Below are positions 21,953 through 46,526 of a DNA stretch of 64,000 nucleotides, piece after piece (positions within the stretch are counted from its first letter, which is position 1; the number at the start of each line of letters is the position of its first letter). The notes under the pieces were generated by a model that worked only from the letters and a program-made list of their open reading frames with translations, did not search any database and had not been told where the DNA came from. The position numbers and the translations under genes are program-made. Source of the stretch: Muriicola jejuensis (GTDB lineage Bacteria; Bacteroidota; Bacteroidia; Flavobacteriales; Flavobacteriaceae); contig NZ_JAABOP010000002.1 in NCBI RefSeq assembly GCF_010671595.1, positions 186,001 to 250,000 of the forward strand, given 5' to 3'.

Positions 21953-24900
21953 ATGAAGAACAAAGTACTGCGAGCATTACTGTTCCTATTTTCCCTGGGG
22001 ATTTTTGCCCAGACAGATCAGGTATCTGTGGTTCAGGACGAAAGTGGGATGAGATTGGTCGTGAACGGGGAAGATTTCATGATCAATGGGATGAACTGGG
22101 ACTATATTCCCATCGGAACCAATACGGTGAATGCCGGATTCTGGGAACAACCCGACGACATTATCAGGGCAGGACTCGACACCGAAATGTCCCTGCTCAA
22201 GAACATGAACGTCAATGTCATCAGGCAGTATACCGGCGTGCCGGCCAGGTGGATCCGGTATATCTATGAGAAATACGGGATATACACCATGCTGAACCAT
22301 TCCTTTGGAAGGTATGGCCTTACTCTGGACGGGGTATGGACCCCTATTACGGACTACGCTGACCCCAAGACCCAGGAATTCCTGATGTCTGAAGTGGAAG
22401 CCCTTGTTCGCGATTATAAGAACACCCCTGGATTGTTGATGTATCTGTTGGGGAATGAAAACAACTACGGATTGTTCTGGCAGGGAGCCGAGACTGAGGA
22501 TTTTCCAGATGATGAAGGAAGGATCGCATTTATAGGAGAGAGTCGTGGCAGGCCCATGTACAAATTGATGAATGAAGCGTCCAAGTTGATGAAATCCATG
22601 GATACTTCTCACCCCGTCGCCATCTGTAACGGGGATGTCCTGTTCATCGATATCGTAGCTGAAGAGTGCAAGGATGTGGATATCTATGGTACCAACATGT
22701 ACCGCGGAGTTTCTTTTGGTGATGCCTTCCAGGTGGTCAAGGAAAAGCTCAATAAGCCCATCATGTTCACGGAATTCGGGGCCGATGCGTTCAATGCCAT
22801 AGAGAACCAGGAAGACCAGAAATCCCAGGCCTATTATATGGTGGGGAACTGGAAAGATATCTATGAGAATGCGGCCGGACTCGGAAAGGCTGAGAATTCC
22901 ATCGGAGGTTTTACCTTTCAGTTCAGTGATGGCTGGTGGAAATTTGGATTCGATGACAGAAAGAATGCCGACGTTCACGATAACAATGCCTCCTGGTCTA
23001 ATGGCGGTTATGACAGCGACCATAAGGAAGGGGAGAACAACATGAATGAAGAGTGGTTTGGGATCTGTGCGAAGGGTCAGACCAATCCGAGAGGCTTATA
23101 TGACCTGTACCCCAGAGCGGCCTATTACGCCCTTAAGGAGGTGCATCAGCTCGACCCCTATGGAGAGGGAGTCACCCTTGATTTTGTGCAGAATTACTTC
23201 CGCAATGTAGACCTCATGGACGCGGTCCTTAAAGCCAGGGGAGACAAGGCAGCCCTGGTAGGGGAACAAAGCGGCATGCTCAGGGTCAGCAGGCTTGAAG
23301 CCCGATTTACGACCTTCAATACCGGAGGAAACCTCATTACGACCCCAAGCAACCCGGATCCGGATAATCCCAACACTTTTCCTGACCAGACTGGTTTCGA
23401 CCATATGCAATCCTATTTCGTGGGCTTTGAAGGGGAACCCGCTCCCAATATGAGGGCGAACGTGAATTTCAACGTTATCGGAAAGGTGGCCACCAATCCC
23501 ATCGATGAGATATTTTACGAAAACAGGGCCAGGCCGGTTGAGGTCAACACGGATGAAGGCGATGTGGTCCTTGCGGACGTCAACAGAGTGGCCGTCTACA
23601 ATGCCTCTTTCGATTGGAATGCGAAGAATTTCGACCTGAGGGGCTTCTACCGGACCGGGCATTACCACTGGGGGTATGAAGGCGACTTTTTTGGGCTGTA
23701 CCCGGAAGCCAATTACGGCCCAAACCTGGATATATACAATGGGGAGATCAGTGGATTTGAATTTGACGGAAAAAGGGCGATCACAGGGCTTAAGGCAGCT
23801 TTCGGCCCTCAACTCTGGTGGGGAGCCAACCCTGCAGTACTTGTGAAATACGAGAGGCAATTTGGAAAATTTGACGTTGCCGGAATCTTCCACGAGGATA
23901 TAGATACGTTTGGAAATATCGTTTCCTCCCTGGCCGTACCTATGCCGAGGACCCGCAGGGCCACGCTCTACATCGGCAGGGAATTCGGGGATGTCAAGTT
24001 AGAAGTTGGCGGGATCTGGGGCGGTCAACCCCTTAATGGAAGGGAGTTCCAGATCGCAGAAGACAACCCTAATTACGATCCGAACAATCCGGATGCCGCA
24101 TCCAAGTACATCATCTTCACCGACCTAGTGAATGAAAAGGATAACTGGGGAGGTAAGGCCAAGATCACCTATACCGGTGGAAAATTCAACTGGTACGCTC
24201 AGGGAGCGATCCAGGGCTTGGTTGCCAATGGTGGTGCAGATCTGACCAGGACCTTTACCGGATGGAAACTCAAGGACACAGGAAGTGGAAATCAGACCAA
24301 TTTCCTTTCAGGATTTACTTATCAGGTAGGCAATGTTCAAATAGCCCCTAATTTCTTGTGGCAAAAGCCTATTGTAGGTCCGATGCCCAATGATGTTCAG
24401 GGACCCGGAAGGCTCAGGAACATTCTGGACGATCCATTTTCTGTTCGCTGGAACAGGGAAACCGTAGCAGGGGAGATCCTGTTTACCTGGGATCCAACAC
24501 CCGGGACATGGATGTACGAATGGGATAACGACAGGTCTGAGGATGCCAAATTGGCCATAAGTGCAGGTTTTGTCTTTAAGCACCTTCCTACATCGATGGA
24601 CGCCCATATCGGTTTCCTCGGAAACAGGACCCTTTTTGCTTTCCCAAATTCAGTTCCGGCCCAGGACCTGTGGGAGACCCATGCACGCATCGTATCCAAG
24701 ATCAACCCCGAGCTGGGGATGATCGCAAACCTCTACTTTGGGAATGCCCAGGCAAACGGGGACAGCGACCGATTAGTGGAACGCGTGGGAGGAGATATCC
24801 GACTGCTTTACAAGAACATCAAAGTACAACATATGTTTAAGATCAATGACTGGGGTCCTTTTGACTACCACCGGGATTTTAACCTGACCTTCCCCGTGCA

Positions 24901-25129
24901 ATTGATGCTCGACATCTCTACCACCCTCGGTAAACCGGATTGGTTTATCCTTCCAAATACCCAGGTGGGTATACGCGGTACCTGGAGGTCACTCAATGAG
25001 TTCTCTAACAGGTATGCGCCCAATGCAGCTGAAGAGTTTGCCACCGAGCCCATCATTAGTCCGGTAGGTTTCGGCTTTGGAAATGAATGGGAGATCAGAA
25101 CATATGTTCATATTAATATCGGGAAATAA
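21953..25129 (+). CDS. Clan GH-A glycoside hydrolase domain joined to a putative outer-membrane beta-barrel
   Basis: 1058 residues. A signal peptide (1-20, ending FAQ) precedes a TIM-barrel hydrolase (~25-400) of GH2/GH5-like clan A type. The acid/base candidate is Glu169 (LLGNENNYG) and the nucleophile candidate Glu274 (IMFTEFGAD). The N-terminal sandwich domains of true GH2 are absent. Residues ~415-1058 look like a porin-type barrel: many 8-12-residue alternating amphipathic strands separated by Asn/Asp/Pro-rich loops, ending in the strand WEIRTYVHINI. It is the first gene of a beta-glucan locus lacking SusC/SusD, so it may cut and/or admit glycan at the outer membrane. Hydrolase fold is fairly certain; the exact family, substrate and barrel are inferred. 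Confidence 0.7.
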   Translation: MKNKVLRALLFLFSLGIFAQTDQVSVVQDESGMRLVVNGEDFMINGMNWDYIPIGTNTVNAGFWEQPDDIIRAGLDTEMSLLKNMNVNVIRQYTGVPARWIRYIYEKYGIYTMLNHSFGRYGLTLDGVWTPITDYADPKTQEFLMSEVEALVRDYKNTPGLLMYLLGNENNYGLFWQGAETEDFPDDEGRIAFIGESRGRPMYKLMNEASKLMKSMDTSHPVAICNGDVLFIDIVAEECKDVDIYGTNMYRGVSFGDAFQVVKEKLNKPIMFTEFGADAFNAIENQEDQKSQAYYMVGNWKDIYENAAGLGKAENSIGGFTFQFSDGWWKFGFDDRKNADVHDNNASWSNGGYDSDHKEGENNMNEEWFGICAKGQTNPRGLYDLYPRAAYYALKEVHQLDPYGEGVTLDFVQNYFRNVDLMDAVLKARGDKAALVGEQSGMLRVSRLEARFTTFNTGGNLITTPSNPDPDNPNTFPDQTGFDHMQSYFVGFEGEPAPNMRANVNFNVIGKVATNPIDEIFYENRARPVEVNTDEGDVVLADVNRVAVYNASFDWNAKNFDLRGFYRTGHYHWGYEGDFFGLYPEANYGPNLDIYNGEISGFEFDGKRAITGLKAAFGPQLWWGANPAVLVKYERQFGKFDVAGIFHEDIDTFGNIVSSLAVPMPRTRRATLYIGREFGDVKLEVGGIWGGQPLNGREFQIAEDNPNYDPNNPDAASKYIIFTDLVNEKDNWGGKAKITYTGGKFNWYAQGAIQGLVANGGADLTRTFTGWKLKDTGSGNQTNFLSGFTYQVGNVQIAPNFLWQKPIVGPMPNDVQGPGRLRNILDDPFSVRWNRETVAGEILFTWDPTPGTWMYEWDNDRSEDAKLAISAGFVFKHLPTSMDAHIGFLGNRTLFAFPNSVPAQDLWETHARIVSKINPELGMIANLYFGNAQANGDSDRLVERVGGDIRLLYKNIKVQHMFKINDWGPFDYHRDFNLTFPVQLMLDISTTLGKPDWFILPNTQVGIRGTWRSLNEFSNRYAPNAAEEFATEPIISPVGFGFGNEWEIRTYVHINIGK

Positions 25130-31174: not shown

Positions 31175-32935
31175 ATGGAAATTAAAGACAAAGACGATAC
31201 ACATCTTGAAATTCAGATAGAGTCTTTGATATCCCGGATGACACTGGATGAAAAGATTGGGCAAATGACCCAGGTACGTCATTTTGACGACACATCAGAA
31301 GAGGATATTGCCACTAAATTCATCGGTTCGATCATCCATACTCAGGGACCTCTTCCCGGTGCAAATGCCAGGGAATGGCAGGAAAAGTTCACCCGATTGC
31401 AAAAGATAGCCTTGTCTACCCGTTTGGGCATACCCCTGCTTTTTGGTGTGGATGCCGTACACGGGCAAAATACCTATGAAGGAGCTACCATCTTCCCTCA
31501 TAATATTGGGTTGGGAGCCACCAGAAGTGCGGAACTTGTAAAGAAGGCAGCAGAGATCACCGCTATAGAAACACGAGCCACGGGGTTCAACTGGGTCTTT
31601 TCACCCTGTATTGCCATTCCGTACAATGAGAAATGGGGAAGGGTTTATGAAGCCTTCTCAGAAAGTACGGAGCTTACTGAAAAAATGGCCAGGGCCTCTG
31701 TGAAAGGGCACCAGGGTGCCGATTTGAATGCGGACTCCGTCATGGCCACAGCCAAGCATTTTATCGGGGACGGATCCACGGATAGCGGAGTGGAAGGCGG
31801 AGACTGTACCCTCACCCCTGAGGAGGTCAGGGAACGCCTTTTGCCGCCTTACCGGGCCGCAGTTGAAGAAGGCGTGGGATCTGTGATGGCTTCTTTTAAC
31901 AGCATGTCAGGCCATTTTATGCATGCGCACAAATACTGGATCACAGACGTTCTGAAAGGGGAGCTGGGCTTTAAGGGAGTCATGGTGTCCGATTGGAAGG
32001 CGTACTCTCGTTTTGGGGAGAATGAGATTATCAATGCCGGTATCGATGTGGTCATGGCAGTGGAAGGTGACTTCCAGATGTATATCGATGGCCTGAAGGC
32101 CGGGGTAGAAAATGGGGAAGTTCCTATGGAGCGTATAGACGATGCCGTTCGCCGGATCTTACGTCAAAAATTCAGGCTGGGGGTTTTTGATAATCCCTTC
32201 CCGGATGCAGGCCTTATCCCCAAAATTGGGATAAAGGAACACAGGGATGTCGCCAGACAGGCGGTCAGGGAATCGCTTGTTTTACTGAAAAACAAGGAGG
32301 ATATACTTCCGCTCAGCAAGAAGCTGAAAAAAATTGTGGTGGTCGGAGAGCACGCAGATAATACCGGACTCCAATCCGGAGGATGGTCTATCAACTGGCA
32401 GGGTTCCACAGAAAGCTATGCCGGGTCCACGTCCATTCTGCAGGGAATCGAGAAGTTGGCTAAAGGGAAAGTGATCTATGACCGGGATGCCTCAGGAGAC
32501 CATGCTGATGCGGATGTCGCCATTGTTGTTATTGGCGAGACCCCCTATGCCGAATTGTTCGGCGATATAGGCGGGGTGATAGGCGCCTATGAAATTACGC
32601 TTACCGAAGAACACCAACAATACATCAACTCTTATGTAGATAAAGGTGTGAAAGTGGTGACTGTGTTCATATCGGGCAGGCCTTTGGTGACCACAAGACA
32701 AATAGAGCAGTCCGATGCTTTTATCGCGGCCTGGCTGCCGGGATCTGAGGGGGGAGGAATAGCAGAAGTCCTTTTTGGAGACTTTGATTTTAAAGGCAAA
32801 TTGCCCCATTCCTGGCCGGCTTCGGTAGAGGATTACAACGGGAAATACGGCCCCAATTTTTGGGACGACTCTGTTGAACCCCTGTTCCCTTTCGGCTACG
32901 GATTGAGTTATAAAAATAAATCTAAAGGTAAGTAA
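31175..32935 (+). CDS. GH3 beta-glucosidase without signal peptide
   Basis: 586 residues, covering the GH3 TIM barrel and the alpha/beta-sandwich domain, without the fibronectin-like third domain. The nucleophile is Asp273 in VMVSDWKA. Other family signatures are LLFGVDAVHGQN, AKHFIGDG and RLGVFDNPF. The N-terminus (MEIKDKDDTHLE) is hydrophilic and lacks a signal or lipobox, so the enzyme should be cytoplasmic, unlike most GH3 in such loci. It would release glucose from imported beta-gluco-oligosaccharides. It follows the terminator at 31035 and leads the group with GH17, GH30 and the permeases. Confidence 0.9.
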   Translation: MEIKDKDDTHLEIQIESLISRMTLDEKIGQMTQVRHFDDTSEEDIATKFIGSIIHTQGPLPGANAREWQEKFTRLQKIALSTRLGIPLLFGVDAVHGQNTYEGATIFPHNIGLGATRSAELVKKAAEITAIETRATGFNWVFSPCIAIPYNEKWGRVYEAFSESTELTEKMARASVKGHQGADLNADSVMATAKHFIGDGSTDSGVEGGDCTLTPEEVRERLLPPYRAAVEEGVGSVMASFNSMSGHFMHAHKYWITDVLKGELGFKGVMVSDWKAYSRFGENEIINAGIDVVMAVEGDFQMYIDGLKAGVENGEVPMERIDDAVRRILRQKFRLGVFDNPFPDAGLIPKIGIKEHRDVARQAVRESLVLLKNKEDILPLSKKLKKIVVVGEHADNTGLQSGGWSINWQGSTESYAGSTSILQGIEKLAKGKVIYDRDASGDHADADVAIVVIGETPYAELFGDIGGVIGAYEITLTEEHQQYINSYVDKGVKVVTVFISGRPLVTTRQIEQSDAFIAAWLPGSEGGGIAEVLFGDFDFKGKLPHSWPASVEDYNGKYGPNFWDDSVEPLFPFGYGLSYKNKSKGK

Positions 32936-32979: not shown

Positions 32980-34257
32980 ATGAGATCCTTTTGGAAAATT
33001 TTGCTCCCGGTTTTTTCGCTTATCTTGGGCCTTTCCTGCAAGGATAAAAGTACCAATACGGAAACTGAACAACCCCAAACAAAAAACGAAGTGACGGCTA
33101 AGGAAATTTTAGGAAACCCCGATTATCTCGCCATGTCCTATGGCGGATACCGGACAAAGACAAGAGACAATCAACCGACCCTCGATGAATTGAAGGACGA
33201 TATGAAGATCCTTCACGCCATGGGGGTCAGGATCGTCCGTACCTATAACGTCCATTTAGCACAGGCTTCCAACCTGCTGAAGGCGATCCGGGAATTGAAA
33301 GAAGCAGACCCCTCCTTTGAAATGTATGTGATGCTGGGCGCCTGGATCGATTGCAAGAATGCATGGACGGGGAAGGAACCCGATCACAACGTGGAAAGTC
33401 CGCGCAATGCGAAGGAGATCGCTACTGCCGTGGAACTTGCCAATACCTATTCCGATATCGTGAAAGTAGTTGCTGTTGGAAATGAAGCCATGGTGAGATG
33501 GGCAACCAGCTATTACGTCCAGCCATCGGTCATCCTGAAATGGGTAAACCACCTGCAGGGCCTAAAGAAATCGGGCAAACTGCCTCAAGACCTATGGATC
33601 ACCAGTTCGGATGACTTCGCCTCATGGGGCGGGGGGGATGAGAGTTACCACACGGAAGACCTTGCTAAACTGATCAGGGCGGTCGACTATATCTCCATGC
33701 ATACCTACCCCTACCACAATTCCCATTACAATCCGGAATTCTGGAGGGTACCGGAGGAGGAAGCAGGCCTGTCGGATATGGCTAAAATTGATTCGGCCAT
33801 GGCAAGGGCCCTGGAATTCGCTCAAAATCAATACAGGGCCGTCACTGATCACATGAAAAGCCTGGGGGTGGATAAGCCCGTACATATAGGGGAGACGGGA
33901 TGGGCCACCATTTCAGACGGCCACTACGGCCCTGAAGGGTCAAAAGCTACCGATGAATACAAGGAAGCCAAATATTACCATCTGATGAGGGAATGGACGA
34001 ATGAGGAAGGTATTTCCTGTTTTTACTTCGAAGCATTTGACGAACCCTGGAAGGATGCCCACAATGCCAAGGGGTCCGAAAACCATTTTGGCTTGTTCAC
34101 GGTAGATGGCAAAGCCAAATACGCCTTGTGGGACCTGGTAGACAAAGGGGTCTTTGATGGACTCAGCAGAAATGGTAACCCCATCGTGAAAACCTCAGAA
34201 GGAAATGAGGAATCCGTGATGCGGGATGTACTCGTGCCTCCTATGGCAGGAGATTGA
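32980..34257 (+). CDS. GH17-like beta-1,3-glucanase lipoprotein
   Basis: 425 residues. Lipobox ~17-22 (ILGLSC), so probably periplasmic or surface-anchored. The TIM barrel carries the GH17 acid/base Glu169 in VAVGNEAM and the nucleophile Glu305 in IGETGWAT. Late in the barrel, CFYFEAFDEPWKD matches the equivalent segment of the other two GH17 domains here. Characterised flavobacterial GH17 enzymes act as endo-beta-1,3-glucanases on laminarin. It is 44 nt after GH3 and 59 nt before GH30. Sequence is clearly diverged from the paralogous pair at 39478-41264. Confidence 0.85.
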   Translation: MRSFWKILLPVFSLILGLSCKDKSTNTETEQPQTKNEVTAKEILGNPDYLAMSYGGYRTKTRDNQPTLDELKDDMKILHAMGVRIVRTYNVHLAQASNLLKAIRELKEADPSFEMYVMLGAWIDCKNAWTGKEPDHNVESPRNAKEIATAVELANTYSDIVKVVAVGNEAMVRWATSYYVQPSVILKWVNHLQGLKKSGKLPQDLWITSSDDFASWGGGDESYHTEDLAKLIRAVDYISMHTYPYHNSHYNPEFWRVPEEEAGLSDMAKIDSAMARALEFAQNQYRAVTDHMKSLGVDKPVHIGETGWATISDGHYGPEGSKATDEYKEAKYYHLMREWTNEEGISCFYFEAFDEPWKDAHNAKGSENHFGLFTVDGKAKYALWDLVDKGVFDGLSRNGNPIVKTSEGNEESVMRDVLVPPMAGD

Positions 34258-34316: not shown

Positions 34317-35819
34317 ATGAGAATGTGGAATGAAATTACGTCTGTTTTGATTATCAGTTTGCTTGTAAGTGGCTGCTCCGTTGAGCAGAAATTAGATCTT
34401 GAAGTATATGAGACCTCTGCGGGAGGCAGTAAAATGCAGCCGGTAACGGAATTTACCGTCGGGGACGACCCCTTGATCATTGGTCTCTTGCCCGAGGAGG
34501 AGTACCAGAAAATAACTGGGTTCGGGGGATCTTTTACGGAAGCCTCTGCTTCCCTCCTCAATGCGCTGGGAGAAGCCAACCGCAAAAAGGTGATAGAGGC
34601 CTATTTCGGGGATGAGGGGGCAAAGTATTCCCTGACCAGGACGCATATGAATTCCTGTGACTTCTCTCTTACCAATTATTCTTATGCCCCTGTGGAAGGG
34701 GATAATGACCTTCTGTATTTCAGCATAGAGGAAGACAGGGAAGATATTATACCTTTCATCAAAGAGGCTATGGAAGTCTCATCCGAAGGATTCAAAATAG
34801 TGGCCTCGCCCTGGACGGCCCCACCCTGGATGAAGGACAACAAGGATTGGAGAGGGGGCAAATTGCTCCCGGAGTACAGGGACACCTGGGCCTTGTTCTT
34901 TTCTAAATACCTCGAGGCCTACAAGGCTGAAGGCATAGATATCTGGGGTTTTACGGTAGAGAACGAGCCCCTCGGAAACGACTATAACTGGGAGAGCATG
35001 CATTTTACCCCGGAGGAGATGACCGATTTTGTGAGGGACTATCTGGGTCCCCGCCTGGAAGAGGACGGCCATGAGGTAAAGATCCTGGGCTATGACCAGA
35101 ATCGGGAGCACCTGGAAGAATGGGTAGACGAGATGTACAGGAATAAGGAGAATGCCAAATACTTCGACGGGACCGCCATCCACTGGTATGCCAGCACCTA
35201 TGAGGTTTTCCCTGAAGCTCTGCAGTACGCCCACAACAAAGCTCCGGAAAAATACCTCATACAGACCGAAGCTTGCGTAGACGCCGAGGTTCCCAAATGG
35301 AAGGACGACGAATGGTACTGGTCTAAAAAGGCAACCGACTGGGGATGGGACTGGGCACCGGAAAAGGATAAATACCTTCATCCCAAATACGCCCCGGTGT
35401 ATCGTTATGCCAGGGATATCATAGGGTGTCTGAACAACTGGGTGGATGGATGGATCGACTGGAATATGGTGCTCGACACCCAGGGAGGGCCCAACTGGTT
35501 CAAGAACTGGTGCGTGGCTCCGGTGATCGTGGACGTTGAAAAGGACGAGGTGTATTTCACCCCCCTTTACTATACGATGAAACACTTTAGCAGGTATATC
35601 AGGCCGGGGGCAATACGCATAGGCTTCGAAAATCCCGACAAAACGCTTCAGATCACTGCTGCGAAGAATCCTGACGGTTCCATAGTGGCAGTCATCCTGA
35701 ACCCGGGAACTGAGAAAAAGGAATTTAAACTGACCCTTGAGGACCGTTCCCATGGGGTCATCATATCGGGCCAGGCCCTGCAAACAATCATCATAGGATC
35801 TGCATCGACTAATAACTAA
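34317..35819 (+). CDS. GH30 family glucosidase lipoprotein (beta-1,6-glucosidase candidate)
   Basis: 500 residues. Lipobox ~16-20 (LLVSGC). The (beta/alpha)8 barrel plus side beta-domain of GH30 is recognisable from ITGFGGSFTEASA, SPWTAPPWMK, the acid/base Glu217 (FTVENEP), the nucleophile Glu318 (IQTEACVD) and the C-terminal VIYTMKHFSRYIRPGA-like segment (here YYTMKHFSRYIRPGAIRIG). In flavobacterial laminarin loci GH30 enzymes remove beta-1,6-linked glucose branches. That role is inferred here from context. Next to a GPH permease gene. Confidence 0.9.
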   Translation: MRMWNEITSVLIISLLVSGCSVEQKLDLEVYETSAGGSKMQPVTEFTVGDDPLIIGLLPEEEYQKITGFGGSFTEASASLLNALGEANRKKVIEAYFGDEGAKYSLTRTHMNSCDFSLTNYSYAPVEGDNDLLYFSIEEDREDIIPFIKEAMEVSSEGFKIVASPWTAPPWMKDNKDWRGGKLLPEYRDTWALFFSKYLEAYKAEGIDIWGFTVENEPLGNDYNWESMHFTPEEMTDFVRDYLGPRLEEDGHEVKILGYDQNREHLEEWVDEMYRNKENAKYFDGTAIHWYASTYEVFPEALQYAHNKAPEKYLIQTEACVDAEVPKWKDDEWYWSKKATDWGWDWAPEKDKYLHPKYAPVYRYARDIIGCLNNWVDGWIDWNMVLDTQGGPNWFKNWCVAPVIVDVEKDEVYFTPLYYTMKHFSRYIRPGAIRIGFENPDKTLQITAAKNPDGSIVAVILNPGTEKKEFKLTLEDRSHGVIISGQALQTIIIGSASTNN

Positions 35820-35846: not shown

Positions 35847-37277
35847 ATGTCTCATCATAATACCGCAGCAAAAGACATAGTCCCTATAGGTCAGAAAGCG
35901 GCCTATGGAGCAGGTCACTTAGTGCTAAACCTTTATCCGGGAGCCCTTGGGTTCTTTATGTTTTTTCTATTGACAGCTTTTGGGATGGACCCATTTTTAG
36001 CAGGATTGCTGGGTGGTTTACCTCGTTTTTTCGATGCGGTTACAGATCCCATTATGGGATTCATTTCAGATAACACTAGTTCGAAAATGGGTAGAAGGAG
36101 GCCCTATATTTTGATAGGGGGCATCCTCAGTGCTATAACCTTTGTATTGCTCTGGCAACTTGATGAAAACAATTCGTCCGATTACAATTTTTGGTACTTC
36201 CTGATTATGTCAATGGTTTTTCTAATCGGGAATACCATGTTTGCCACCCCCCTGGTTGGCTTAGGATATGAAATGACGACGGATTACAACGAGCGGACAC
36301 GTTTAATGGCATTTTCCCAAACGGTTGGTTTAATAGCCTGGATCATCGTGCCCTGGTTTTGGGTAATCATTGCTGACCCTGAGATTTTTGATAATCAGGC
36401 CGAAGGGGTACGGACGATGGCCATTTATGTTGGGCTAGTCTGTTTATTACTTGGCCTTTTGCCGGCTTTCTTTTGCAGGGGAATGGATGCCGCGCCTATG
36501 AAGAACAGAAAGAAATTGACCTTTTCCTCCATCTTCAGCAACTTAAAGGACCTTTTCAGAAGTATTGGAGAAGCGATCAAGAACAAACCTTTCATGAAAT
36601 TATGCGGTGCCACCTTTTTGGTTTTCAACGGGTTTCAAATCGTGGCGTCTTTCAGCTTCTTTATTTTCGTTTTTTACATCTTCAATGGAAGTTATGAAGC
36701 CACCGCGACATGGCCCGCATGGTTTAGTTCTGTAGGGGCATTTGTTTCGGCTTTCCTGGTGATTCCCATTGTATCGAAAATGGCTGAAAAATGGGGTAAA
36801 AAGAACGCCTTTATCATCGCAACCCTGCTCTCGATTGTCGGGTACATCATGAAATGGTGGGCGTTTACCCCGGATAATGTGTGGCTTTCATTTATCCCAA
36901 TCCCGCTGATGTCATTTGGCCTGGGGAGCCTGTTCACGTTGATGATGAGTATGACTGCCGATGTTTGTGACCTAGACGAGCTGAGAAATGGAATGCCCAG
37001 GAAAGAGGGAACGTTTGGAGCATTGTACTGGTGGGTGGTAAAACTTGGACAAGGCCTTGCCTTGGTTCTTGGAGGCCTAGTGTTAAAGATGATCGGATTT
37101 GATGGTAATGCAGCCACTCAGACTGCTGATACTTTGACAAAACTGAGAATTGCAGATATAGTCATCCCCGTAGTGACGGCAGGATTGGCCGTTTGGGTCA
37201 TGTGGAAATACAGCCTTTCAGAAGAAAGGGCAATGGAGATTAAAGCGCAGCTAGAGGAAAGAAGGGGCGAATTATAA
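35847..37277 (+). CDS. GPH-family (glycoside-pentoside-hexuronide) MFS permease
   Basis: 476 residues with about 12 membrane helices. GPH signatures are present: FFDAVTDPIMGFISDNTSSKMGRRRPYILIGG near residues 60-95 and the later MSMTADVCDLDELRNGMPRKEGTFGALYWW block. These symporters import glycosides with Na+ or H+. The first half of the fusion protein at 38020 is a paralogue. Position within the GH cluster suggests uptake of glucose or laminari-oligosaccharides across the inner membrane. Confidence 0.9.
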   Translation: MSHHNTAAKDIVPIGQKAAYGAGHLVLNLYPGALGFFMFFLLTAFGMDPFLAGLLGGLPRFFDAVTDPIMGFISDNTSSKMGRRRPYILIGGILSAITFVLLWQLDENNSSDYNFWYFLIMSMVFLIGNTMFATPLVGLGYEMTTDYNERTRLMAFSQTVGLIAWIIVPWFWVIIADPEIFDNQAEGVRTMAIYVGLVCLLLGLLPAFFCRGMDAAPMKNRKKLTFSSIFSNLKDLFRSIGEAIKNKPFMKLCGATFLVFNGFQIVASFSFFIFVFYIFNGSYEATATWPAWFSSVGAFVSAFLVIPIVSKMAEKWGKKNAFIIATLLSIVGYIMKWWAFTPDNVWLSFIPIPLMSFGLGSLFTLMMSMTADVCDLDELRNGMPRKEGTFGALYWWVVKLGQGLALVLGGLVLKMIGFDGNAATQTADTLTKLRIADIVIPVVTAGLAVWVMWKYSLSEERAMEIKAQLEERRGEL

Positions 37278-37322: not shown

Positions 37323-37958
37323 ATGTCATCAAAAATAATTATCCTAGTACTTGGAGCCTTCCTCGTAGCAGTGGCACTCCTTGGCAGTATTAAAAGGAAG
37401 TCTGGCAAGAAGCTTCTCAGTAATAAATTCTCGGTCATTTTCGGGATCATCGGTGTACTGATGATGATATTTGGAAGCTATTCATCGGATCTGGTGAATT
37501 ACAATACGCAGATGGAACAAGTCTCCATAGGTGCCAAGCTGAAGATCAGCGGGCCGGTGAACGCCGTTAAAACGGTGTATCCCATAGATAAAGACTCTGT
37601 GGATTGCAGGATTTTGACCATGGGGGTGTATCCAGAATCCCACAACAAAGATATCTGGGTGGTAATCCGGCCCACGGATGACAGGTACTATCCCCAATCC
37701 GACCATACCAATACTTCTTACAAAAGAGATGGCGAATGGCAAGTGGTTACCCGTTTCGGCGGCGATAAGGGCGAAGCTTATGACTTGATTATCTATGAGG
37801 CCGACTCAACCGCCTCCTCCTTCTTCAGTGCTACCATTGCCAAATGGAAGGAAGTAGATAATTATCCCGGTTTACAGCTGGAGGAAATGCCTCCCGGAGC
37901 CAGAGAAGTGGAACGCTTGGTGATCTACACCAGCAAGAACTGTAGGGGTGTTTTTTAA
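37323..37958 (+). CDS. Membrane-anchored protein of unknown function
   Basis: 211 residues, not recognised. Two hydrophobic segments (~5-24 and ~37-56) flank a basic loop (KRKSGKKLLSNK). A soluble domain (~60-211), presumably on one face of the membrane, has a pattern of beta-strands (VSIGAKLKISGPVNAVKTVYPI ... DIWVVIRPTDDRYYPQSD ... WQVVTRFGGDKGEAYDLIIYEAD) that loosely resembles an extracytoplasmic Ig/CBM-like sandwich. It lies between the two GPH permease genes (45 nt after one, 61 nt before the next), so it may be a partner of transport. Confidence 0.6.
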   Translation: MSSKIIILVLGAFLVAVALLGSIKRKSGKKLLSNKFSVIFGIIGVLMMIFGSYSSDLVNYNTQMEQVSIGAKLKISGPVNAVKTVYPIDKDSVDCRILTMGVYPESHNKDIWVVIRPTDDRYYPQSDHTNTSYKRDGEWQVVTRFGGDKGEAYDLIIYEADSTASSFFSATIAKWKEVDNYPGLQLEEMPPGAREVERLVIYTSKNCRGVF

Positions 37959-38019: not shown

Positions 38020-40359
38020 ATGTTGACAGTAAGTAAAAAAAAGGTCCCATTCGGTCAAAAGCTGGCTTTCGGTATAGGAATGTTTGCCAATCAGATGTTT
38101 CCAGCCATCCTGGGGATTTTTATGGTAGTTCTTGTAGAAGACCTGGGATTTCCCGGTTGGATGTGGTCACTTATCTATTTCTTTCCCAGAATTTTTGATT
38201 CTATCACAGACCCCATCATGGGCTTTATCTCGGATAATACCAAATCCAAATGGGGAAGGAGAAAACAATATGTTCTGATAGGTGGCCTTATCATGGGGGT
38301 GGCTTTCATTTTTATGTGGCAGCTCTATGCATCTGATACCTTACAATATAATTTCTGGTATTTCTTTCTGTGGTCTATCGTTTTTTATTTAGGGCTCACT
38401 TTTTTCAGCGTTCCCTATGTGGCCATGGGTTATGAAATGAGTGACGATTTTCATGAACGCACGGATATTATGGCCGTTGCCCAGTGGATCGGACAATGGG
38501 CCTGGGTGATCGCCCCCTGGTTCTGGGTGATCATGTACGATCCGGCCTGGTTTCCGTCAGCTGATGTTGCCGTGAGAGAATTGGCTATCTGGGTTGCCAT
38601 TCCCTGTGCCATATGTGCAATGGTTCCTGCCATTTTTATCAGGAGCAAATCGACGCTTCAAGAAGATTATGAACCCTTGAATACCGCCAACATTGCCAAT
38701 AGCCTGAAGAAGATCCTCCAAAGCTTTAAGGAGGCCTTCAGAATAGAACAGTTCAGGAGAATATGTATGGCTACATTCCTGATCTTTAACGCGTTTAACA
38801 CGGTTGCTGCCCTTACATTTTTTGTCGTTGTTTATAAATTATTTAACGGGGATGCCGAGGCTTCGGGGATCTGGGTGTCCTTATTTGGATGCCTGGGGGC
38901 ATTGGGTACCACCTTTATCGTCATTCCAATCGTAGCCCGGATGGCAAGGGTTATGGGCAAGAAAAAGGCGTTTATGGTCGCACAGGGTATTTCAGTTGTT
39001 GGATATATCATGTTGTACTTTCTTTTCGTACCCGGAAAACCCTGGATGTATATTATCGGTCTCCCCTTCTTTTCGTTCGGGATAGGTAGTTTGTTTACCA
39101 TTATGATGTCTATGACCGCAGATGTCATAGATATTGATGAGCTGAATTCCGGGAAACGCCGAGAAGGAATTTTCGGAGCTATTTACTGGTGGATGGTCAA
39201 AGTTGGCTTTGCCATTGCCGGGGCACTCAGCGGAATTATTATTGCGCTTGTTGGCTTTAATCCGGACCTCCCTACCACCGAGCAACAACCTGCTGTAGAC
39301 GGGTTGCTGGCATTCTTTTGCTTCTTCCCTATGGCAGGTACGATCGTCGCCATGCTCGTCATGAGGAAGTACGATGTGACCGAGGCGCGGGCTAATGAGA
39401 TCAGGGCTGAGATTGAAAAGAGGAAAGAGCCCAAGAGTTCCTCTTCCTATGAAGGTGATAAGCTCTCCTCAATTAATATGGAGAAAATAGAAATTGACCG
39501 CAGCACGGATGTAGATTTTACCTCCATGGAGGATACGGAGGTGAGGAAGTTATTCCTGAGGACCCTTGAAAAAGGGATCCACGGAATGTGTTTCAGTCCG
39601 TACCTGGAAGGGCAGGACATTGGGGACATCCTCTCGGAATCCCAGATCCGTACCCGTATGGAGGTAGTGAAACCCTACTCCCAGTGGGTGCGATCCTTTT
39701 CATGTACGGAAGGGAATGAATTCATCGCCAGGGTGGCCAGGGAAAACGGCCTAAAGACCATTGTGGGAGCCTGGATCAGCAATGACAGGGAAAAGAATGA
39801 AAAGGAAATACAAAGCCTGATCGAACTTGCCAAAGCGGGTTATGTGGATATTGCAGCCGTTGGTAATGAGGTGTTGCTCAGGAAGGAATTGTCTGAGGAG
39901 GAAGTATTGGGGTACATCCAAAAGGTAAAAAAGGCCCTGCCCGATATTCCGGTAGGGTATGTAGATACCTATTTCAGGTTCTATGAGAGTCCCAGACTGG
40001 CAGATGCCTGCGATGTGATCCTGGCGAACTGTTATCCATTCTGGGAGGGGTGTTCCGTGGAAGAGGCATCCACCTACCTGAAAAAAATGCACGCTGTTGC
40101 GAAACAAGCGGCCAAAGGAAAACCTGTTATCATTACCGAAACTGGTTGGCCAGACAATGGTCAGAATGTGCGGGAAGCTATACCTTCTCCCTTGAATGCC
40201 ATGAAGTATTTTATCAATATTCACGCCTGGAGGGAGAAATATAATTCAGAATTATTTTACTTTTCGTCCTTCGATGAGGACTGGAAAATGCATCACGAAG
40301 GGGATGTGGGTGCCAGTTGGGGAATTTGGGATAAAAACGAACATTTGAAATACAGTTAA
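38020..40359 (+). CDS. GPH-family MFS permease fused to a C-terminal GH17 domain
   Basis: 779 residues from the ATG at 38020 (an in-frame TTG lies three codons earlier). Residues ~1-470 are a complete GPH permease: FFPRIFDSITDPIMGFISDNTKSKWGRRKQ, 12 helices, and the MSMTADVIDIDELNSGKRREGIFGAIYWW block. After a Lys/Ser-rich linker (~470-490) comes a full ~290-residue GH17 domain with acid/base Glu617 (AVGNEVLL) and nucleophile Glu707 (IITETGWP). GPH permeases have cytoplasmic C-termini, so the hydrolase should face the cytoplasm. No frameshift or stop lies at the junction; an internal ATG at 39478 could mark an ancestral separate start. The next gene is a free GH17 paralogue 2 nt later. Confidence 0.88.
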   Translation: MLTVSKKKVPFGQKLAFGIGMFANQMFPAILGIFMVVLVEDLGFPGWMWSLIYFFPRIFDSITDPIMGFISDNTKSKWGRRKQYVLIGGLIMGVAFIFMWQLYASDTLQYNFWYFFLWSIVFYLGLTFFSVPYVAMGYEMSDDFHERTDIMAVAQWIGQWAWVIAPWFWVIMYDPAWFPSADVAVRELAIWVAIPCAICAMVPAIFIRSKSTLQEDYEPLNTANIANSLKKILQSFKEAFRIEQFRRICMATFLIFNAFNTVAALTFFVVVYKLFNGDAEASGIWVSLFGCLGALGTTFIVIPIVARMARVMGKKKAFMVAQGISVVGYIMLYFLFVPGKPWMYIIGLPFFSFGIGSLFTIMMSMTADVIDIDELNSGKRREGIFGAIYWWMVKVGFAIAGALSGIIIALVGFNPDLPTTEQQPAVDGLLAFFCFFPMAGTIVAMLVMRKYDVTEARANEIRAEIEKRKEPKSSSSYEGDKLSSINMEKIEIDRSTDVDFTSMEDTEVRKLFLRTLEKGIHGMCFSPYLEGQDIGDILSESQIRTRMEVVKPYSQWVRSFSCTEGNEFIARVARENGLKTIVGAWISNDREKNEKEIQSLIELAKAGYVDIAAVGNEVLLRKELSEEEVLGYIQKVKKALPDIPVGYVDTYFRFYESPRLADACDVILANCYPFWEGCSVEEASTYLKKMHAVAKQAAKGKPVIITETGWPDNGQNVREAIPSPLNAMKYFINIHAWREKYNSELFYFSSFDEDWKMHHEGDVGASWGIWDKNEHLKYS

Positions 40360-40361
40360 TC

Positions 40362-41264
40362 ATGTCTACAAGGAATATATCATCAAGAAAAGAGAAATAC
40401 CTGGCCCTGGCAGCTCTGGATTATGCCGGGAAAACCACGAAAGAGTTAAAGAAATTATGCAGGAGCGTCCTGGATGAGGGAATGCACGGGCTGTGCTTCA
40501 GCCCTTACCTCGAAGGACAAAAACCCGGAGACCAGATCTCAGAAGAGCAGATCCGCCGTAGGATGGAGATCATACAACCCTACACCCAGTGGATACGGTC
40601 TTTTTCCTGTACCGAAGGCAATGAGGCCATCCCCAGGATCGCCAGGGAATTTGGGATCAAAACCATGGTAGGTGCCTGGTTGGGAGACAATCCCAAGATC
40701 AATGCCCAGGAGGTTGAAAACCTGATAGAACTGGCCAAGGAGGGTTATGTCGATATTGCTGCGGTAGGGAATGAGGTTATGCTGAGGGGCGATCTCACCG
40801 AGGACGAATTACTCGGGAAATTGGATCAGGTAAAAAGTGCCGTACCTTCAGAAATTCCGGTGGGTTACGTGGATGCCTATTATGAATTCGCCGAAAAACC
40901 GCGGATCACTGAGGCATGTGATGTGGTCCTGGCGAATTGCTACCCCTTTTGGGAAGGATGCGACCTGGATTATTCCCTCCTGTATATGAAAGACATGTAC
41001 AGAAGGGCTATTAATGCAGCCCAGGGGAAAAAGGTCATTATCTCTGAAACAGGCTGGCCTTTTCAGGGCACCAACCTCGAGGGAGCCTATCCATCTTATG
41101 AAAATGCCCTTAAATACTTTATGAATACCCAGAAATGGGCGGCAGAAGAAGATATTGAAATCTTTTATTTCTCCTCTTTCGACGAATCCTGGAAGGTAGG
41201 AGCGGAAGGAGATGTAGGTGCCTTCTGGGGCCTTTGGGATAAGGATGAGCGACTCAAATTCTGA
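40362..41264 (+). CDS. GH17-like beta-1,3-glucanase without signal peptide
   Basis: 300 residues. Closely paralogous to the GH17 domain of the preceding fusion (shared HG(L/M)CFSPYLEGQ, RSFSCTEGNE, NLIELAKEGYVDIAAVGNEV, VLANCYPFWEGC). Acid/base Glu138 and nucleophile Glu229 (ISETGWPF) are both present. The start MSTRNISSRKEK is hydrophilic, so it should be cytoplasmic. It begins 2 nt after the fusion's stop, so the two are translated together. It may act on imported beta-1,3-oligosaccharides as a hydrolase or transglycosylase. A terminator follows at 41306. Confidence 0.87.
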   Translation: MSTRNISSRKEKYLALAALDYAGKTTKELKKLCRSVLDEGMHGLCFSPYLEGQKPGDQISEEQIRRRMEIIQPYTQWIRSFSCTEGNEAIPRIAREFGIKTMVGAWLGDNPKINAQEVENLIELAKEGYVDIAAVGNEVMLRGDLTEDELLGKLDQVKSAVPSEIPVGYVDAYYEFAEKPRITEACDVVLANCYPFWEGCDLDYSLLYMKDMYRRAINAAQGKKVIISETGWPFQGTNLEGAYPSYENALKYFMNTQKWAAEEDIEIFYFSSFDESWKVGAEGDVGAFWGLWDKDERLKF

Positions 41265-41401: not shown

Positions 41402-42943
41402 ATGAACCAGGCAGCCACCGCAGTTAAGATGAACAAGTCCTACACCATCCTTATCAGCCTGATCGTGGCACTGGGGGGATTTCTCCTTGGGTTCGACAGT
41501 GCCGTGATCTCGGGAGCGGTAAAAGGCATCACCGTATACTTTGAGATGACGGAGTGGATGCTGGGCTTCTCGGTAGGCTGTGTGGTATTCGGGGCCATGG
41601 CGGGAAATCTCATGGCAGGCCCGGTCGCAGACAAATTCGGGAGAAAAAATACCCTCATCGTGGTGGCTGCCCTCTTCACCATTTCAGCTACCTGGTCTGC
41701 CCTTGCGACAGGGTATACGGAATTCATCATAGCCAGAATTATTGGCGGCGTGGGTATTGGAGGCGCCATCCTCATTGCCCCCATTTATATTGCTGAGATC
41801 GCCCCTCCAAAGTTGAGGGGGAGTCTCGTCTCCTTTAACCAGTTGAATATCGTCATCGGGATCTCGGTAGCTTATTTTTCCAATTATTTCCTAGTCGATC
41901 TGGGGGATGAAAGCTGGAGGTGGATGCTCGGGGTGGAGGCCATTCCTGCCGCAATTTATTTTATCGCGCTCTGGACCGTTCCGAAAAGTCCGAGGTGGCT
42001 GATCCAGAAACTCAACAAGATCGACCTTGCCCGTAAGATCCTACAAAGGATAGGGGGAGAGGAATACGCCGAGATCACCATACAGGAGATCCAGAGGGGG
42101 ATCGATAAAAGGGAAGAAAAGGGAAGACTCTCCGACCTTTTCAGCAGCAAATATGCCACCATCATGATCATAGCCATGGGGATCGCTTTCTTTCAGCAGA
42201 TCACCGGGATCAATGCCATTTTTTACTATGCCCCAACCATCTTTGAACAGGCAGGGGGAAGTACGGATTCTTCATTCTTGCAGGCCATCGTCGTAGGCCT
42301 TACCAACCTGGTCTTTACCCTGGTGGCGATCTGGCTGATCGACCGGCTGGGGAGGAAACCCCTCTTGCTGATAGGTACCACCTGTATGACTATTGCCTTG
42401 CTGATGGCCACCTTCGCCTTCAACAATGCGACCTACGATTTCAATAAGACCACCCTCGAGAAGGTGGGAGATCAGGAAGTGCGCATGGCTCTTACCGCTT
42501 TGGAGGGAAACACCTATGACGGTCAGGCTGTGTTGTTCAAGGCTGTACAGGGAGAACTAAATGAAGAACAGTTCCTCCATTTCAAGAGAAATGAGATCAC
42601 CAATTTCATCCAGATCAATGCCACCCTTGTACTCATAGCGATCCTTTTGTACGTGGCATCATTCGCGATCTCCCTTGGCCCCGTGATGTGGACCCTGATC
42701 TCGGAGATATTCCCGAGCAAGATCAAGGGTATTGCGATCTCCGTAGTGGGCTTTTTTAACTCTTTGGTGAGTTTCAGCGTGACCCAGGTATTTCCATGGG
42801 AATTGTCTAATCTGGGACCCACCGTGACCTTTGCACTTTATGCATTGTTGTCCTTCATCGCCATCCTGTTTGTATATAAATTTGTCATTGAGACCAAAGG
42901 AAGAACCCTGGAAGAGGTGGAAGAATTACTCATCCGCGAATAA
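41402..42943 (+). CDS. Sugar porter family MFS transporter
   Basis: 513 residues, 12 helices. Sugar porter hallmarks are GRKNTL after helix 2, IGGVGIGGAILIAPIYIAEIAP in helix 4, PKSPRWL at the start of the central loop, the QQITGINAIFYYAPTIFE motif in helix 7 and DRLGRKPLL after helix 8. A ~60-residue extra hydrophilic stretch (~325-395) lies between helices 9 and 10, as in other Bacteroidota relatives. It most likely imports glucose or another hexose by H+ symport. It has its own leader after the terminator at 41306 and precedes the phosphorylase gene by about 110 nt. Confidence 0.9.
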   Translation: MNQAATAVKMNKSYTILISLIVALGGFLLGFDSAVISGAVKGITVYFEMTEWMLGFSVGCVVFGAMAGNLMAGPVADKFGRKNTLIVVAALFTISATWSALATGYTEFIIARIIGGVGIGGAILIAPIYIAEIAPPKLRGSLVSFNQLNIVIGISVAYFSNYFLVDLGDESWRWMLGVEAIPAAIYFIALWTVPKSPRWLIQKLNKIDLARKILQRIGGEEYAEITIQEIQRGIDKREEKGRLSDLFSSKYATIMIIAMGIAFFQQITGINAIFYYAPTIFEQAGGSTDSSFLQAIVVGLTNLVFTLVAIWLIDRLGRKPLLLIGTTCMTIALLMATFAFNNATYDFNKTTLEKVGDQEVRMALTALEGNTYDGQAVLFKAVQGELNEEQFLHFKRNEITNFIQINATLVLIAILLYVASFAISLGPVMWTLISEIFPSKIKGIAISVVGFFNSLVSFSVTQVFPWELSNLGPTVTFALYALLSFIAILFVYKFVIETKGRTLEEVEELLIRE

Positions 42944-43052: not shown

Positions 43053-46000
43053 ATGAAGCAAGACATTCACGTAGGAAAAAGCACGTTGAACTTTAAGGAA
43101 AGGGAGGTAGAAGGAAGTTTGGTCGTCATCGACGGTGAGACCTACTACAAGATCAGCAACAGTGACGGGATGCGCCCGTTCTTTATGAGCATCGTCAGTG
43201 ATTCGAACCACTGGATGTTCATCTCGAGCAATGGCGGACTCACCGCCGGGAGAAAAAATAGCGAATTTGCCCTCTTTCCCTACTACACGGACGACAAGAT
43301 CACGGAGTCCACAGACTTTACTGGTTGCAAAACCCTTTTGAGAATACGTACCGCGGAAGGGGATACGCTATGGGAGCCTTTCTCAAATAGATATTCCGGG
43401 ATGTATAGAATCCAAAGGAATCTTTACAAGAATACCTATGGGAATAAGGTGATGTTTGAGGAGATCAACGAGGATCTGGGAATGATCTTCAGGTACCAGT
43501 GGAATTCGAGTAACCTTTACGGCTTTGTGAGAAAGGCCAGTTTACAGAATATTTCCGGGTCGGAGGTGGAAGTCGAGCTCCTCGATGGAGTCCAGAACAT
43601 CCTTCCTTATGGAGTTCCCACCAATACACAGCATACGTACAGCAACCTTGTAGACGCTTACAAAAGAAATGAACTGATACCGGAAGTCGGCATCGGGATC
43701 TATGCCCTGAGTGCCATCATCGTAGACCGGGCTGAACCAAGTGAGGCACTCAAGGCCAACGTAGTCTGGTCATTGGGAATCCCCAACCCTTCATACCTCA
43801 TCTCCTCCCGCCAGGTGGAAGCCTTCAGACAGGGAAAAGAGGTAAGACAGGAAATCGACGTCAAAGCGGAGCGGGGCGCGTATTTTATCCATGGCAGTAT
43901 CAAGGTGAAGGAAAACCAGTCCCAGGAATGGTTATTGGTAGCGAACGTCAACCAGAATGCCTCTGATATTGCAGGGATCAAAAAGAAACTGGGAAATCCT
44001 GATGCCTTAACCCAGGAGCTGTCCGGGGAGATCGCGGCAGGCACCCAAAGGCTTAAATTACTGGCCGGCGCGGCTGATGGTTTCCAGTGCACAGAAGACA
44101 AATTGCAGACTTCCAGGCATTACGCCAATGTGCTCTACAACATCATGAGGGGAGGGATCTTTGACAAGGACTACCAGATAGAACGCAGGGATTTTACCAA
44201 TTACCTCCAAAATGCGAACAGGACTGTGTATAAAACTTTTGCGAATCAACTTTCTGGGCTCCCGGAGGTTTTCGATCTTCAGACCCTGAGACATCTCGCC
44301 CAAAGGTCTGATCATCTCGATTTCCAGAGGTTGTGCATCGAATACCTGCCCCTGAAATTCAGCAGGAGGCACGGAGATCCCAGCAGGCCCTGGAACCGGT
44401 TCTCCATCAATACAAGAAGCGAGGTTGACGGCTCCAAGATTCTAGACTATCAGGGGAACTGGAGGGATATTTTCCAGAACTGGGAAGCGCTTGCCCATTC
44501 TTACCCGGATTTTATAGATGGGATGATCCACAAGTTCCTCAACGCTTCCACCTTTGAAGGTTATAATCCATACCGGGTCACCAAAAGTGGGTTCGACTGG
44601 GAGGTGATCGAGCCGGACGACCCCTGGTCCTACATAGGATACTGGGGAGACCACCAGATTATCTACCTATTAAAATTTCTGGAATTCATAGAAGATTATT
44701 ACCCCTCACGTCTGGCAAAGTACTGGGATGCTCCCCTCTTTGTGTACGCTAATGTACCGTATAAGATCAAGAGTTATTACGACATCATTGCCGACCCTAA
44801 GGATACCATTGTCTTCGATCACCAGCTCGACCTCGCGATCAATGCCAGAAAAGATGAGATGGGTGCAGACGGGGCTCTTCTTACCGGCCAGGAAGGGAAT
44901 ATTGTCCACGTAAATCTGGTCGAAAAACTGCTGGTCACCCTTCTGGCCAAATGCTCCAACTTTATCCCTGAGGCCGGGATTTGGCTTAACACTCAGCGGC
45001 CTGAATGGAACGACGCCAATAACGCCCTCGTCGGTAACGGAGTGTCCATGGTAACCTTGTATTACCTTCGAAGATTCCTGGTTAAATTCAGGGAGATCAT
45101 CGGGGAGGTGGAGAAGGATGAGGTGGAGATCTCCACCGAGCTGGCCCGGTTCCTGTCTGCCGTGGTAAGCACGTTGAAACAACACGAGTCGGCCTTAAAA
45201 AGGAGCTTTACGGACAAGGAACGCCTCCAGGTCATGGATGGCCTGGGTATGGCGGGCAGTGATTACCGGGAGCAGATCTATAATTCAGGGTATAGCGGAA
45301 AGAGAACCAGGCTTTCTAAAAAGGAGCTGTTGGATTTCACAGGGACCGTTTTACCATACCTCGAACATTCCATAGAGGCAAATAAAAGGAAGGACAACCT
45401 TTACCATGCCTACAATCTGATCAGTATTACGAAGGAAAAGGGAACCTCCATTGATTACCTCAGTGTGATGCTCGAAGGTCAGGTAGCGGTGCTAAGTGCG
45501 GGATATCTGAAGGCCGATGAAGTGCTTACCCTTCTCGACAGTATGAAGAAAAGCGACCTTTACCGCAAGGATCAGTACAGCTACATTCTGTATCCGAACA
45601 AGGAACTTCCCGGGTTCATGAAAAAGAATGTCATCCCGGCCTCCCGGGTTAAGAACTCTTCCTTGCTCACAAAGCTCATGGATATTGGGAATACACAGAT
45701 AGTACAAAAAGACGTCGATGGAAATTACCATTTCAATGGGAATTTCAACAATGCCAATGATCTGAAACGGGCGCTGGATGAACTCGCACAAGGGGGGCAT
45801 TCAGATCTTGTGAAGAAAGAAAGGCAAAATGTCCTCGATATCTTTGAGGAGGTCTTTGATCACAAGTCCTTTACGGGCCGCTCTGGCACCTTCTTCGGAT
45901 ACGAAGGTCTGGGCTCTATATACTGGCATATGGTCTCCAAACTTTTGCTGGCGGTACTGGAATGCAGCAGAAGAGCTATGGCAGCAGGAGCCCCGGATAA

Positions 46001-46526
46001 GGTCGTCAAAGGACTGATGAGGCATTACCACGAGATCAATGAAGGGATTGGAGTGCACAAATCCCCTTCATTATATGGGGCATTTCCAACCGATCCTTAT
46101 TCCCATACCCCTGCCACCAAAGGTGCCCAGCAACCGGGTATGACCGGACAGGTGAAAGAAGACATACTTAGCAGGCTTTCAGAGTTGGGAGTAAGTGTCC
46201 GGAGCGGAAGGGTCTCATTCGGGACCGGACTCCTGGAAAAGCAGGAGATCCTTACCCGGGAAGCCAAGTTCAGCTATGTAGACCTGGAAGGAAGGGAAAA
46301 ATTCATAGATCTGTCGCCGGGCAGTCTGGCATTCACCTATTGCCAGACTCCAGTGGTATATACCTTTGGATCCTCGGAAGGGATACAGATCTACAAGGCA
46401 GATGGCGCCCGCGAAAATATACAAGGGCTTAGTCTGGATGTGGAGACCAGTAACAAGATCTTTCATCGCACAGGTGAGGTCACGCGGATCGATGTTGCAC
46501 TGCGCTCAGACCAGGTGCCAATGTAA
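43053..46526 (+). CDS. GH94/GH149/GH161-type beta-glucan phosphorylase
   Basis: 1157 residues, no signal peptide. Residues ~10-300 resemble the N-terminal beta-sandwich of inverting disaccharide phosphorylases, and the rest is an (alpha/alpha)6 barrel plus a C-terminal sandwich. The catalytic acid candidate is Asp654 in PEWNDANNALVGNG, which corresponds to the WND motif of GH94. A phosphate-site-like stretch is GRSGTFFGYEGLGSIYWHMVSKL (~945-970). The length matches GH149 and GH161 (beta-1,3-glucan phosphorylases) rather than the ~800-residue cellobiose phosphorylases. With the surrounding genes this suggests cytoplasmic phosphorolysis of beta-1,3-oligoglucans to glucose 1-phosphate. The exact family is unconfirmed. 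Confidence 0.75.
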   Translation: MKQDIHVGKSTLNFKEREVEGSLVVIDGETYYKISNSDGMRPFFMSIVSDSNHWMFISSNGGLTAGRKNSEFALFPYYTDDKITESTDFTGCKTLLRIRTAEGDTLWEPFSNRYSGMYRIQRNLYKNTYGNKVMFEEINEDLGMIFRYQWNSSNLYGFVRKASLQNISGSEVEVELLDGVQNILPYGVPTNTQHTYSNLVDAYKRNELIPEVGIGIYALSAIIVDRAEPSEALKANVVWSLGIPNPSYLISSRQVEAFRQGKEVRQEIDVKAERGAYFIHGSIKVKENQSQEWLLVANVNQNASDIAGIKKKLGNPDALTQELSGEIAAGTQRLKLLAGAADGFQCTEDKLQTSRHYANVLYNIMRGGIFDKDYQIERRDFTNYLQNANRTVYKTFANQLSGLPEVFDLQTLRHLAQRSDHLDFQRLCIEYLPLKFSRRHGDPSRPWNRFSINTRSEVDGSKILDYQGNWRDIFQNWEALAHSYPDFIDGMIHKFLNASTFEGYNPYRVTKSGFDWEVIEPDDPWSYIGYWGDHQIIYLLKFLEFIEDYYPSRLAKYWDAPLFVYANVPYKIKSYYDIIADPKDTIVFDHQLDLAINARKDEMGADGALLTGQEGNIVHVNLVEKLLVTLLAKCSNFIPEAGIWLNTQRPEWNDANNALVGNGVSMVTLYYLRRFLVKFREIIGEVEKDEVEISTELARFLSAVVSTLKQHESALKRSFTDKERLQVMDGLGMAGSDYREQIYNSGYSGKRTRLSKKELLDFTGTVLPYLEHSIEANKRKDNLYHAYNLISITKEKGTSIDYLSVMLEGQVAVLSAGYLKADEVLTLLDSMKKSDLYRKDQYSYILYPNKELPGFMKKNVIPASRVKNSSLLTKLMDIGNTQIVQKDVDGNYHFNGNFNNANDLKRALDELAQGGHSDLVKKERQNVLDIFEEVFDHKSFTGRSGTFFGYEGLGSIYWHMVSKLLLAVLECSRRAMAAGAPDKVVKGLMRHYHEINEGIGVHKSPSLYGAFPTDPYSHTPATKGAQQPGMTGQVKEDILSRLSELGVSVRSGRVSFGTGLLEKQEILTREAKFSYVDLEGREKFIDLSPGSLAFTYCQTPVVYTFGSSEGIQIYKADGARENIQGLSLDVETSNKIFHRTGEVTRIDVALRSDQVPM

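Follow-up and report, generated by a model that had tools for sequence, protein, structure and literature searches.

In Muriicola jejuensis (assembly GCF_010671595.1, contig NZ_JAABOP010000002.1, 186,001-250,000 of the forward strand; this stretch of 64,000 nt is called the window and carries all coordinates unless another locus is named), a single gene encodes a permease of the major facilitator superfamily (MFS) followed by a glycoside hydrolase domain of family GH17. We consider it likely that this MFS-GH17 protein is of the published FbGH17B type and acts within a variant 1 laminarin locus as a tethered cytoplasmic beta-1,3-glucan hydrolase of the exo type, positioned at the exit of an oligosaccharide importer. 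The frame starts with ATG at 38020 and ends with the stop at 40359 (+ strand), encodes 779 amino acids and has zero internal stops; an in-frame TTG at 38011 is a possible alternative start that would add three residues. An earlier note on this DNA had described one uninterrupted frame for a complete GPH permease and then a complete GH17 domain, which was borne out by the open reading frames, Pfam, AlphaFold2 and Foldseek.

Architecture and conservation of the fused protein

The permease part (38020..39384, +; residues 1-455) comprises 12 membrane helices and is of the GPH/MelB type according to Pfam, the structural model and Foldseek. MFS_2 (PF13347) matches residues 17-455 with an E-value of 1.8e-62 (211.7 bits, cut-off 27), and the first part of the AlphaFold2 model matches MelB and MFSD2A in Foldseek, both in support of the GPH-type assignment made before. 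Using alignments to MelB and to the mutant chains D55C and D59C, Asp60 and Asp64 fall on the cation-site residues Asp55 and Asp59 in helix II of MelB, and both are invariant in 51/51 fused homologues. The ratio of non-synonymous to synonymous substitution rates (dN/dS) of the permease is 0.057; synonymous sites are saturated in the remaining parts of the protein.

The AlphaFold2 model was built from 51 fused homologues (mean predicted local distance difference test, pLDDT, 86.5; predicted template modelling score, pTM, 0.59) and contains the 12 membrane helices, an amphipathic helix at residues 455-469, a short stretch of low confidence and a complete eight-stranded barrel. The amphipathic helix and a poorly conserved linker to about residue 503 occupy 39385..39528 (+); pLDDT drops below 50 at residues 471-475, and identity of the linker to three relatives is 46-73% compared to 84-97% for the permease. 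The GH17 (beta/alpha)8 barrel covers residues 504-779 (39529..40356, +), as assigned by Pfam, the model, Foldseek and alignment. Since the Pfam GH17 match (PF00332), although above cut-off, is aligned to residues 702-779 only, i.e. the last third of the domain, completeness of the barrel was checked by structure. Its strands lie at residues 520-524, 554-560, 579-584, 611-616, 645-650, 666-670, 703-708 and 745-747, and Foldseek matches this second part of the model to the GH17 enzyme RmBgt17A (4wtr) with a TM-score of 0.86 by target length and a root-mean-square deviation of 2.3. Alignment identifies Glu617 (39868-39870, +) as acid/base and Glu707 (40138-40140, +) as nucleophile; the earlier note had named both positions correctly, and they are invariant in 247/247 collected GH17 domains.

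The chance that a sequencing or assembly artefact joined two genes is negligible. The sole point in its favour is the existence of unfused copies in relatives, whereas a genome of the same genus (G184) carries an equally uninterrupted fused frame with 89% identity over residues 7-779 and independent assemblies yielded about 100 fused frames without interruption. This excludes that a stop was missed or the frame shifted at 39420-39480, and because uninterrupted frames are conserved in independent genomes, the fusion is not an assembly error. The domain search for the same fusion elsewhere, as proposed earlier, found uninterrupted full-length homologues in 24 of the 400 Flavobacteriaceae genomes sampled, while three more genomes of this sample carry a GH17 of the fused type on a more distant permease. 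Judged from loci taken from GTDB genomes, the fusion is present in Flavobacteriaceae, Saprospiraceae, Lewinellaceae, Cyclobacteriaceae, Flammeovirgaceae and Microscillaceae, and further genomes elsewhere in the Bacteroidota also have it. Frames of 1020-1045 amino acids were considered as candidates for further fusions and rejected, as stop-to-stop reading resolved them into separate GPH and GH17 genes.

Side of the membrane

The predicted cytoplasmic loops of the permease contain about 24 Lys/Arg residues compared to 2 in the periplasmic loops, with loop limits approximated from hydropathy peaks. This pattern, including the positive N-terminus, is what a 12-helix protein with its two termini in the cytoplasm should show. 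Because of this positive-inside bias together with the 12 helices of the model, the GH17 part is most likely cytoplasmic, and the cytoplasmic C-terminus assumed in the earlier note is supported as a prediction. An arrangement with GH17 on the periplasmic face, where it would cut oligosaccharides ahead of uptake and leave glucose or laminaribiose for the permease to import, is very unlikely: helix number, N-terminal charge and Lys/Arg distribution all speak against it, as do the MelB-type fold and the lack of a signal peptide in the stand-alone GH17 homologue encoded in the window.

Hydrolysis or transfer

For the reaction itself, work on related enzymes offers a reference. Stand-alone MlGH17B is a beta-1,6-forming transglycosylase whose Tyr136, Trp191 and Glu192 correspond to residues that RmBgt17A needs for transfer, and a Tyr to Ala change was reported to abolish transfer by RmBgt17A (PMC11005184). 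FbGH17B has Met at this acceptor Tyr position, and its GH17 domain shares 53% identity with MlGH17B (PMC11005184). The window protein departs from the Tyr-Trp-Glu triad, with Leu620 (39877-39879, +; by alignment), Trp675 and Glu676. The Trp and Glu positions are invariant. Among the collected domains the Tyr position divides the two groups: 95 of 102 fused domains have another residue (Leu 63, Met 30, His 1, Phe 1, with Tyr in 7), whereas the 145 stand-alone domains have Tyr in 132 and Leu in 13. As this correlation is mostly clade against clade, it reflects one or a few events rather than many independent ones. The stand-alone GH17 of this genus (40362-41264 in the window) also has Leu there, in contrast to the 132/145 stand-alone domains with Tyr.

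Positions 534, 758, 759 and 766 also separate the two groups and lie at or beside the -3, -1 and +1 subsites, as mapped by eye through the alignment and not from a complex structure; in MlGH17B numbering, the alignment places 534 at subsite -3, 620 at +1/+2 and 759 at +1.

The fused GH17 could instead be mainly a beta-1,3-glucanosyltransferase like MlGH17B, whose intracellular products, branched or kinked oligosaccharides, would be stored or would prime another enzyme. The RmBgt17A structures are the nearest solved ones, MlGH17B and the FbGH17B domain share the identity given above, Trp and Glu of the transfer triad are invariant, and Tyr persists in six fused-clade members as well as in one separate fusion (L143, see below). 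However, Leu620 replaces precisely the Tyr whose loss abolished transfer in RmBgt17A, and FbGH17B, with Met there, is reported to yield glucose (PMC6246565). We therefore regard transfer as the main activity as unlikely and predict that the fused GH17 of the window protein is adapted to cleavage and not to branch formation.

Evolutionary history

In unrooted GH17 trees, 70 of 71 fused sequences are set apart from all 64 stand-alone ones with strong support, and at the sequence level the fused GH17s are a subfamily separate from the stand-alone cytosolic GH17s. In one genome (locus L143, 544-3006, - strand), a GPH frame is fused with a GH17 of the stand-alone type that carries Tyr; by its domain type this is an independent second fusion. 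Fused-type GH17 was also seen on the other GPH paralogue, i.e. in the clade of the permease at 35847-37277 of the window (L117, 812-3391; L149; L124, 1488-3953).

Fused and unfused permeases are intermixed in the permease tree, with 15 state changes, at least 10 of which are forced by well supported branches. The unfused permeases stop shortly past residue 470 and mostly have a GH17 of the stand-alone type downstream. Because the GH17 downstream belongs to the stand-alone subfamily, the tree and gene order indicate that the fused domain was lost repeatedly and not split off. Gene fission as a source of the unfused permeases was accordingly rejected, the fused domain having been deleted.

A tentative scenario, plausible but in our view somewhat less likely than not, is that transporter-fused GH17 domains form an old subfamily of their own. 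Once tethered, their glycone (-3) and acceptor (+1/+2) subsites would have changed, and a transferase type that makes branches would have become a hydrolase acting on sugars as they exit the importer. The tether would then have disappeared on many occasions, reappeared at least once and been transferred to a second permease, and coupled uptake and cleavage would have been selected recurrently.

The laminarin locus

The fused gene is part of a laminarin locus that spans approximately 18776-46526 of the window. Its gene order is sensor/regulator, a signal-peptide protein with a glycosidase barrel, GH16, a PKD/CBM protein, GH3, GH17A, GH30, an unfused GPH permease, a 211-aa membrane protein, the fusion, a stand-alone GH17, a sugar porter and GH149. 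To compare loci, we used 59 fusion loci of at least 18 kb. The GH3 beta-glucosidase (31175..32935, +) lacks a signal peptide by domain and signal-peptide analysis. It is followed by a GH17A-type endo-laminarinase, a periplasmic lipoprotein with a Cys lipobox (32980..34257, +; homologue in 59/59 loci), and by a GH30 debranching enzyme, also a lipoprotein (34317..35819, +; 45/59). The second, unfused GPH permease (35847..37277, +) is 43% identical to the fused one by profile and sequence comparison, and between the two permeases lies a 211-aa membrane-anchored protein of no known family (37323-37958; 6/59). Downstream are the stand-alone cytosolic GH17 (40362..41264, +), which belongs to the second subfamily and is 58% identical to the fused domain, an MFS transporter of the sugar porter family (41402..42943, +; TIGR00879 above cut-off; only 7/59) and a cytosolic GH149 beta-1,3-glucan phosphorylase (43053..46526, +; NF058639 with 1773 bits, cut-off 1150; 59/59). 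Like GH3, the stand-alone GH17 and GH149 have no signal peptide. The stand-alone GH17 starts 2 bases after the stop of the fused gene. A picture of a bare permease with a lone GH17 would thus need correcting, as a separate GH17 gene adjoins the fusion and everything lies within a laminarin locus.

No SusD-like gene was found in the laminarin locus, and the three SusD matches of the genome are on other contigs. Further upstream, 21953-25129 (+) encodes a secreted protein of 1058 amino acids with a glycosidase TIM barrel, whose closest folds are GH158 laminarinases and which matches Pfam GH2_C. About 570 residues of amphipathic beta-hairpins follow the TIM barrel and resemble an outer-membrane barrel (hairpin alternation 2.51, compared to a maximum of 2.15 in 500 shuffles; low-confidence model, pLDDT 60). 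The protein, found in 34/151 genomes, is possibly a second enzyme-channel fusion of this locus, in which neither SusC nor SusD was detected.

Proposed mechanism and its significance

We propose that laminarin would be debranched by GH30 and cut by GH17A, both in the periplasm, and that the GPH symporter part would import the debranched beta-1,3-gluco-oligosaccharides together with a cation. On the cytoplasmic face, a short flexible linker would tether the GH17 domain, which would hydrolyse the emerging oligosaccharides from an end and may benefit from its closeness to the importer, and glucose and short oligosaccharides would be passed to the cytosolic GH3 and GH149. The predicted topology and the laminarin locus support the earlier suggestion of a hydrolase tethered at the importer exit in a beta-1,3-glucan pathway. 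Channelling, a true coupling of uptake to cleavage, and the osmotic or regulatory advantage suggested in the earlier note are hypothetical.

Several points weigh against this proposal. The permease stays below the NCBIfam cut-off for GPH (TIGR00792; 187.2 vs 231.35 bits over the full model length), and its profile scores place it as a divergent relative of the GPH cation symporters (TC 2.A.2) rather than as a core member. Tyr is kept in 6 fused-clade members, which makes seven fused frames with L143; therefore, not all of the fused enzymes need be pure hydrolases. In the published accounts of MFS-GH17 fusions we found no transport assay, and the available parts of PMC6246565 do not state that FbGH17B was assayed together with transport. 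Finally, the permease tree shows that relatives lost the fused domain repeatedly, and the tether is therefore dispensable in some lineages.

This last point leads to the possibility that the fusion involves no kinetic coupling and merely fixes a one-to-one ratio or the membrane location of two co-expressed proteins. It is compatible with the stand-alone GH17 adjoining the fused gene, with the many relatives that have only the stand-alone type after the permease, and with the at least 10 state changes in the tree. However, the fused domains make up a separate subfamily whose subsites differ, L143 represents an independent second fusion, and the fused-type GH17 also occurs on the other permease paralogue in L117, L149 and L124; taken together, these sequence patterns suggest that the tether itself is under selection. 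We consider a fusion without coupling a lesser possibility than the tethered hydrolase, though one to be taken more seriously than a transferase.

Few carbon flows in the sea are as large as that through laminarin, and the fusion has been reported from the loci with the highest expression in algal blooms (PMC10108472). The predictions of membrane side and of hydrolysis or transfer, the latter hinging on one residue (Tyr vs Leu/Met), render the purpose of the tether testable in culturable flavobacteria, and relatives with and without the fused domain, resulting from repeated loss and renewed fusion, provide natural comparisons.

Comparison with known systems

The earlier note regarded transporter-hydrolase fusions of this kind as undescribed, which is refuted by two publications. 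As described by Unfried et al. (2018; PMC6246565), the protein FORMB_24740 from Formosa sp. Hel1_33_131 consists of an N-terminal 12-helix MFS transporter and a C-terminal GH17 (FbGH17B). The assayed GH17 hydrolyses debranched laminarin only (KM 2.6 mM) and converts GH17A products and oligosaccharides to glucose. These authors proposed hydrolysis coupled to uptake, called the fusion common among marine Flavobacteriia and stated that, to their knowledge, a fusion of a transporter with a carbohydrate-active enzyme was undescribed for other bacteria (PMC6246565). Later, Sidhu et al. (2023; PMC10108472) reported that of the variant 1 laminarin loci expressed by active metagenome-assembled genomes, SAR92 and other Gammaproteobacteria among them, most contain one or more GH17-MFS fusions. 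Literature searches under other wording gave no relevant earlier report of GPH-hydrolase fusions.

Our analysis adds the predicted cytoplasmic placement of GH17, derived from charge pattern and modelled fold and situated beside the cytosolic GH17, GH3 and GH149. It also adds, from comparison of sequences, the separation of the fused subfamily, a residue-level prediction of hydrolysis and a history in which the fused domain was lost repeatedly and fusion occurred anew.

The window protein adds one more case to the FbGH17B-type MFS-GH17 fusions and shares their kind of locus. With FORMB_24740 (AOR29491.1) it shares the 12-helix MFS and GH17 in one protein as well as a laminarin locus with GH17A, GH30 and GH149; both have a non-Tyr acceptor residue, but Met in FbGH17B and Leu here. 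By sequence, the Formosa comparison was made with the nearest locus (L084; 65% identity over residues 2-779), and FbGH17B itself was compared by description. MlGH17B of Muricauda lutaonensis, a stand-alone cytosolic transglycosylase, has the GH17 type, the kind of locus and the acceptor Trp and Glu in common with the window protein, but is unfused, has Tyr136 where Leu620 is found, and by its type would belong to the other subfamily. RmBgt17A (PDB 4wtp/4wtr/4wts) shares the GH17 fold and the catalytic pair; in contrast to the fused domain with Leu620, it is an unfused fungal transferase with Tyr102. The melibiose symporter MelB shares the GPH fold and the cation-site Asp pair with the permease part, but unlike the window protein has no fused domain. 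Its galactoside-site Asp19 aligns to Gln25 of the window permease, and therefore a sugar other than that of MelB is expected.
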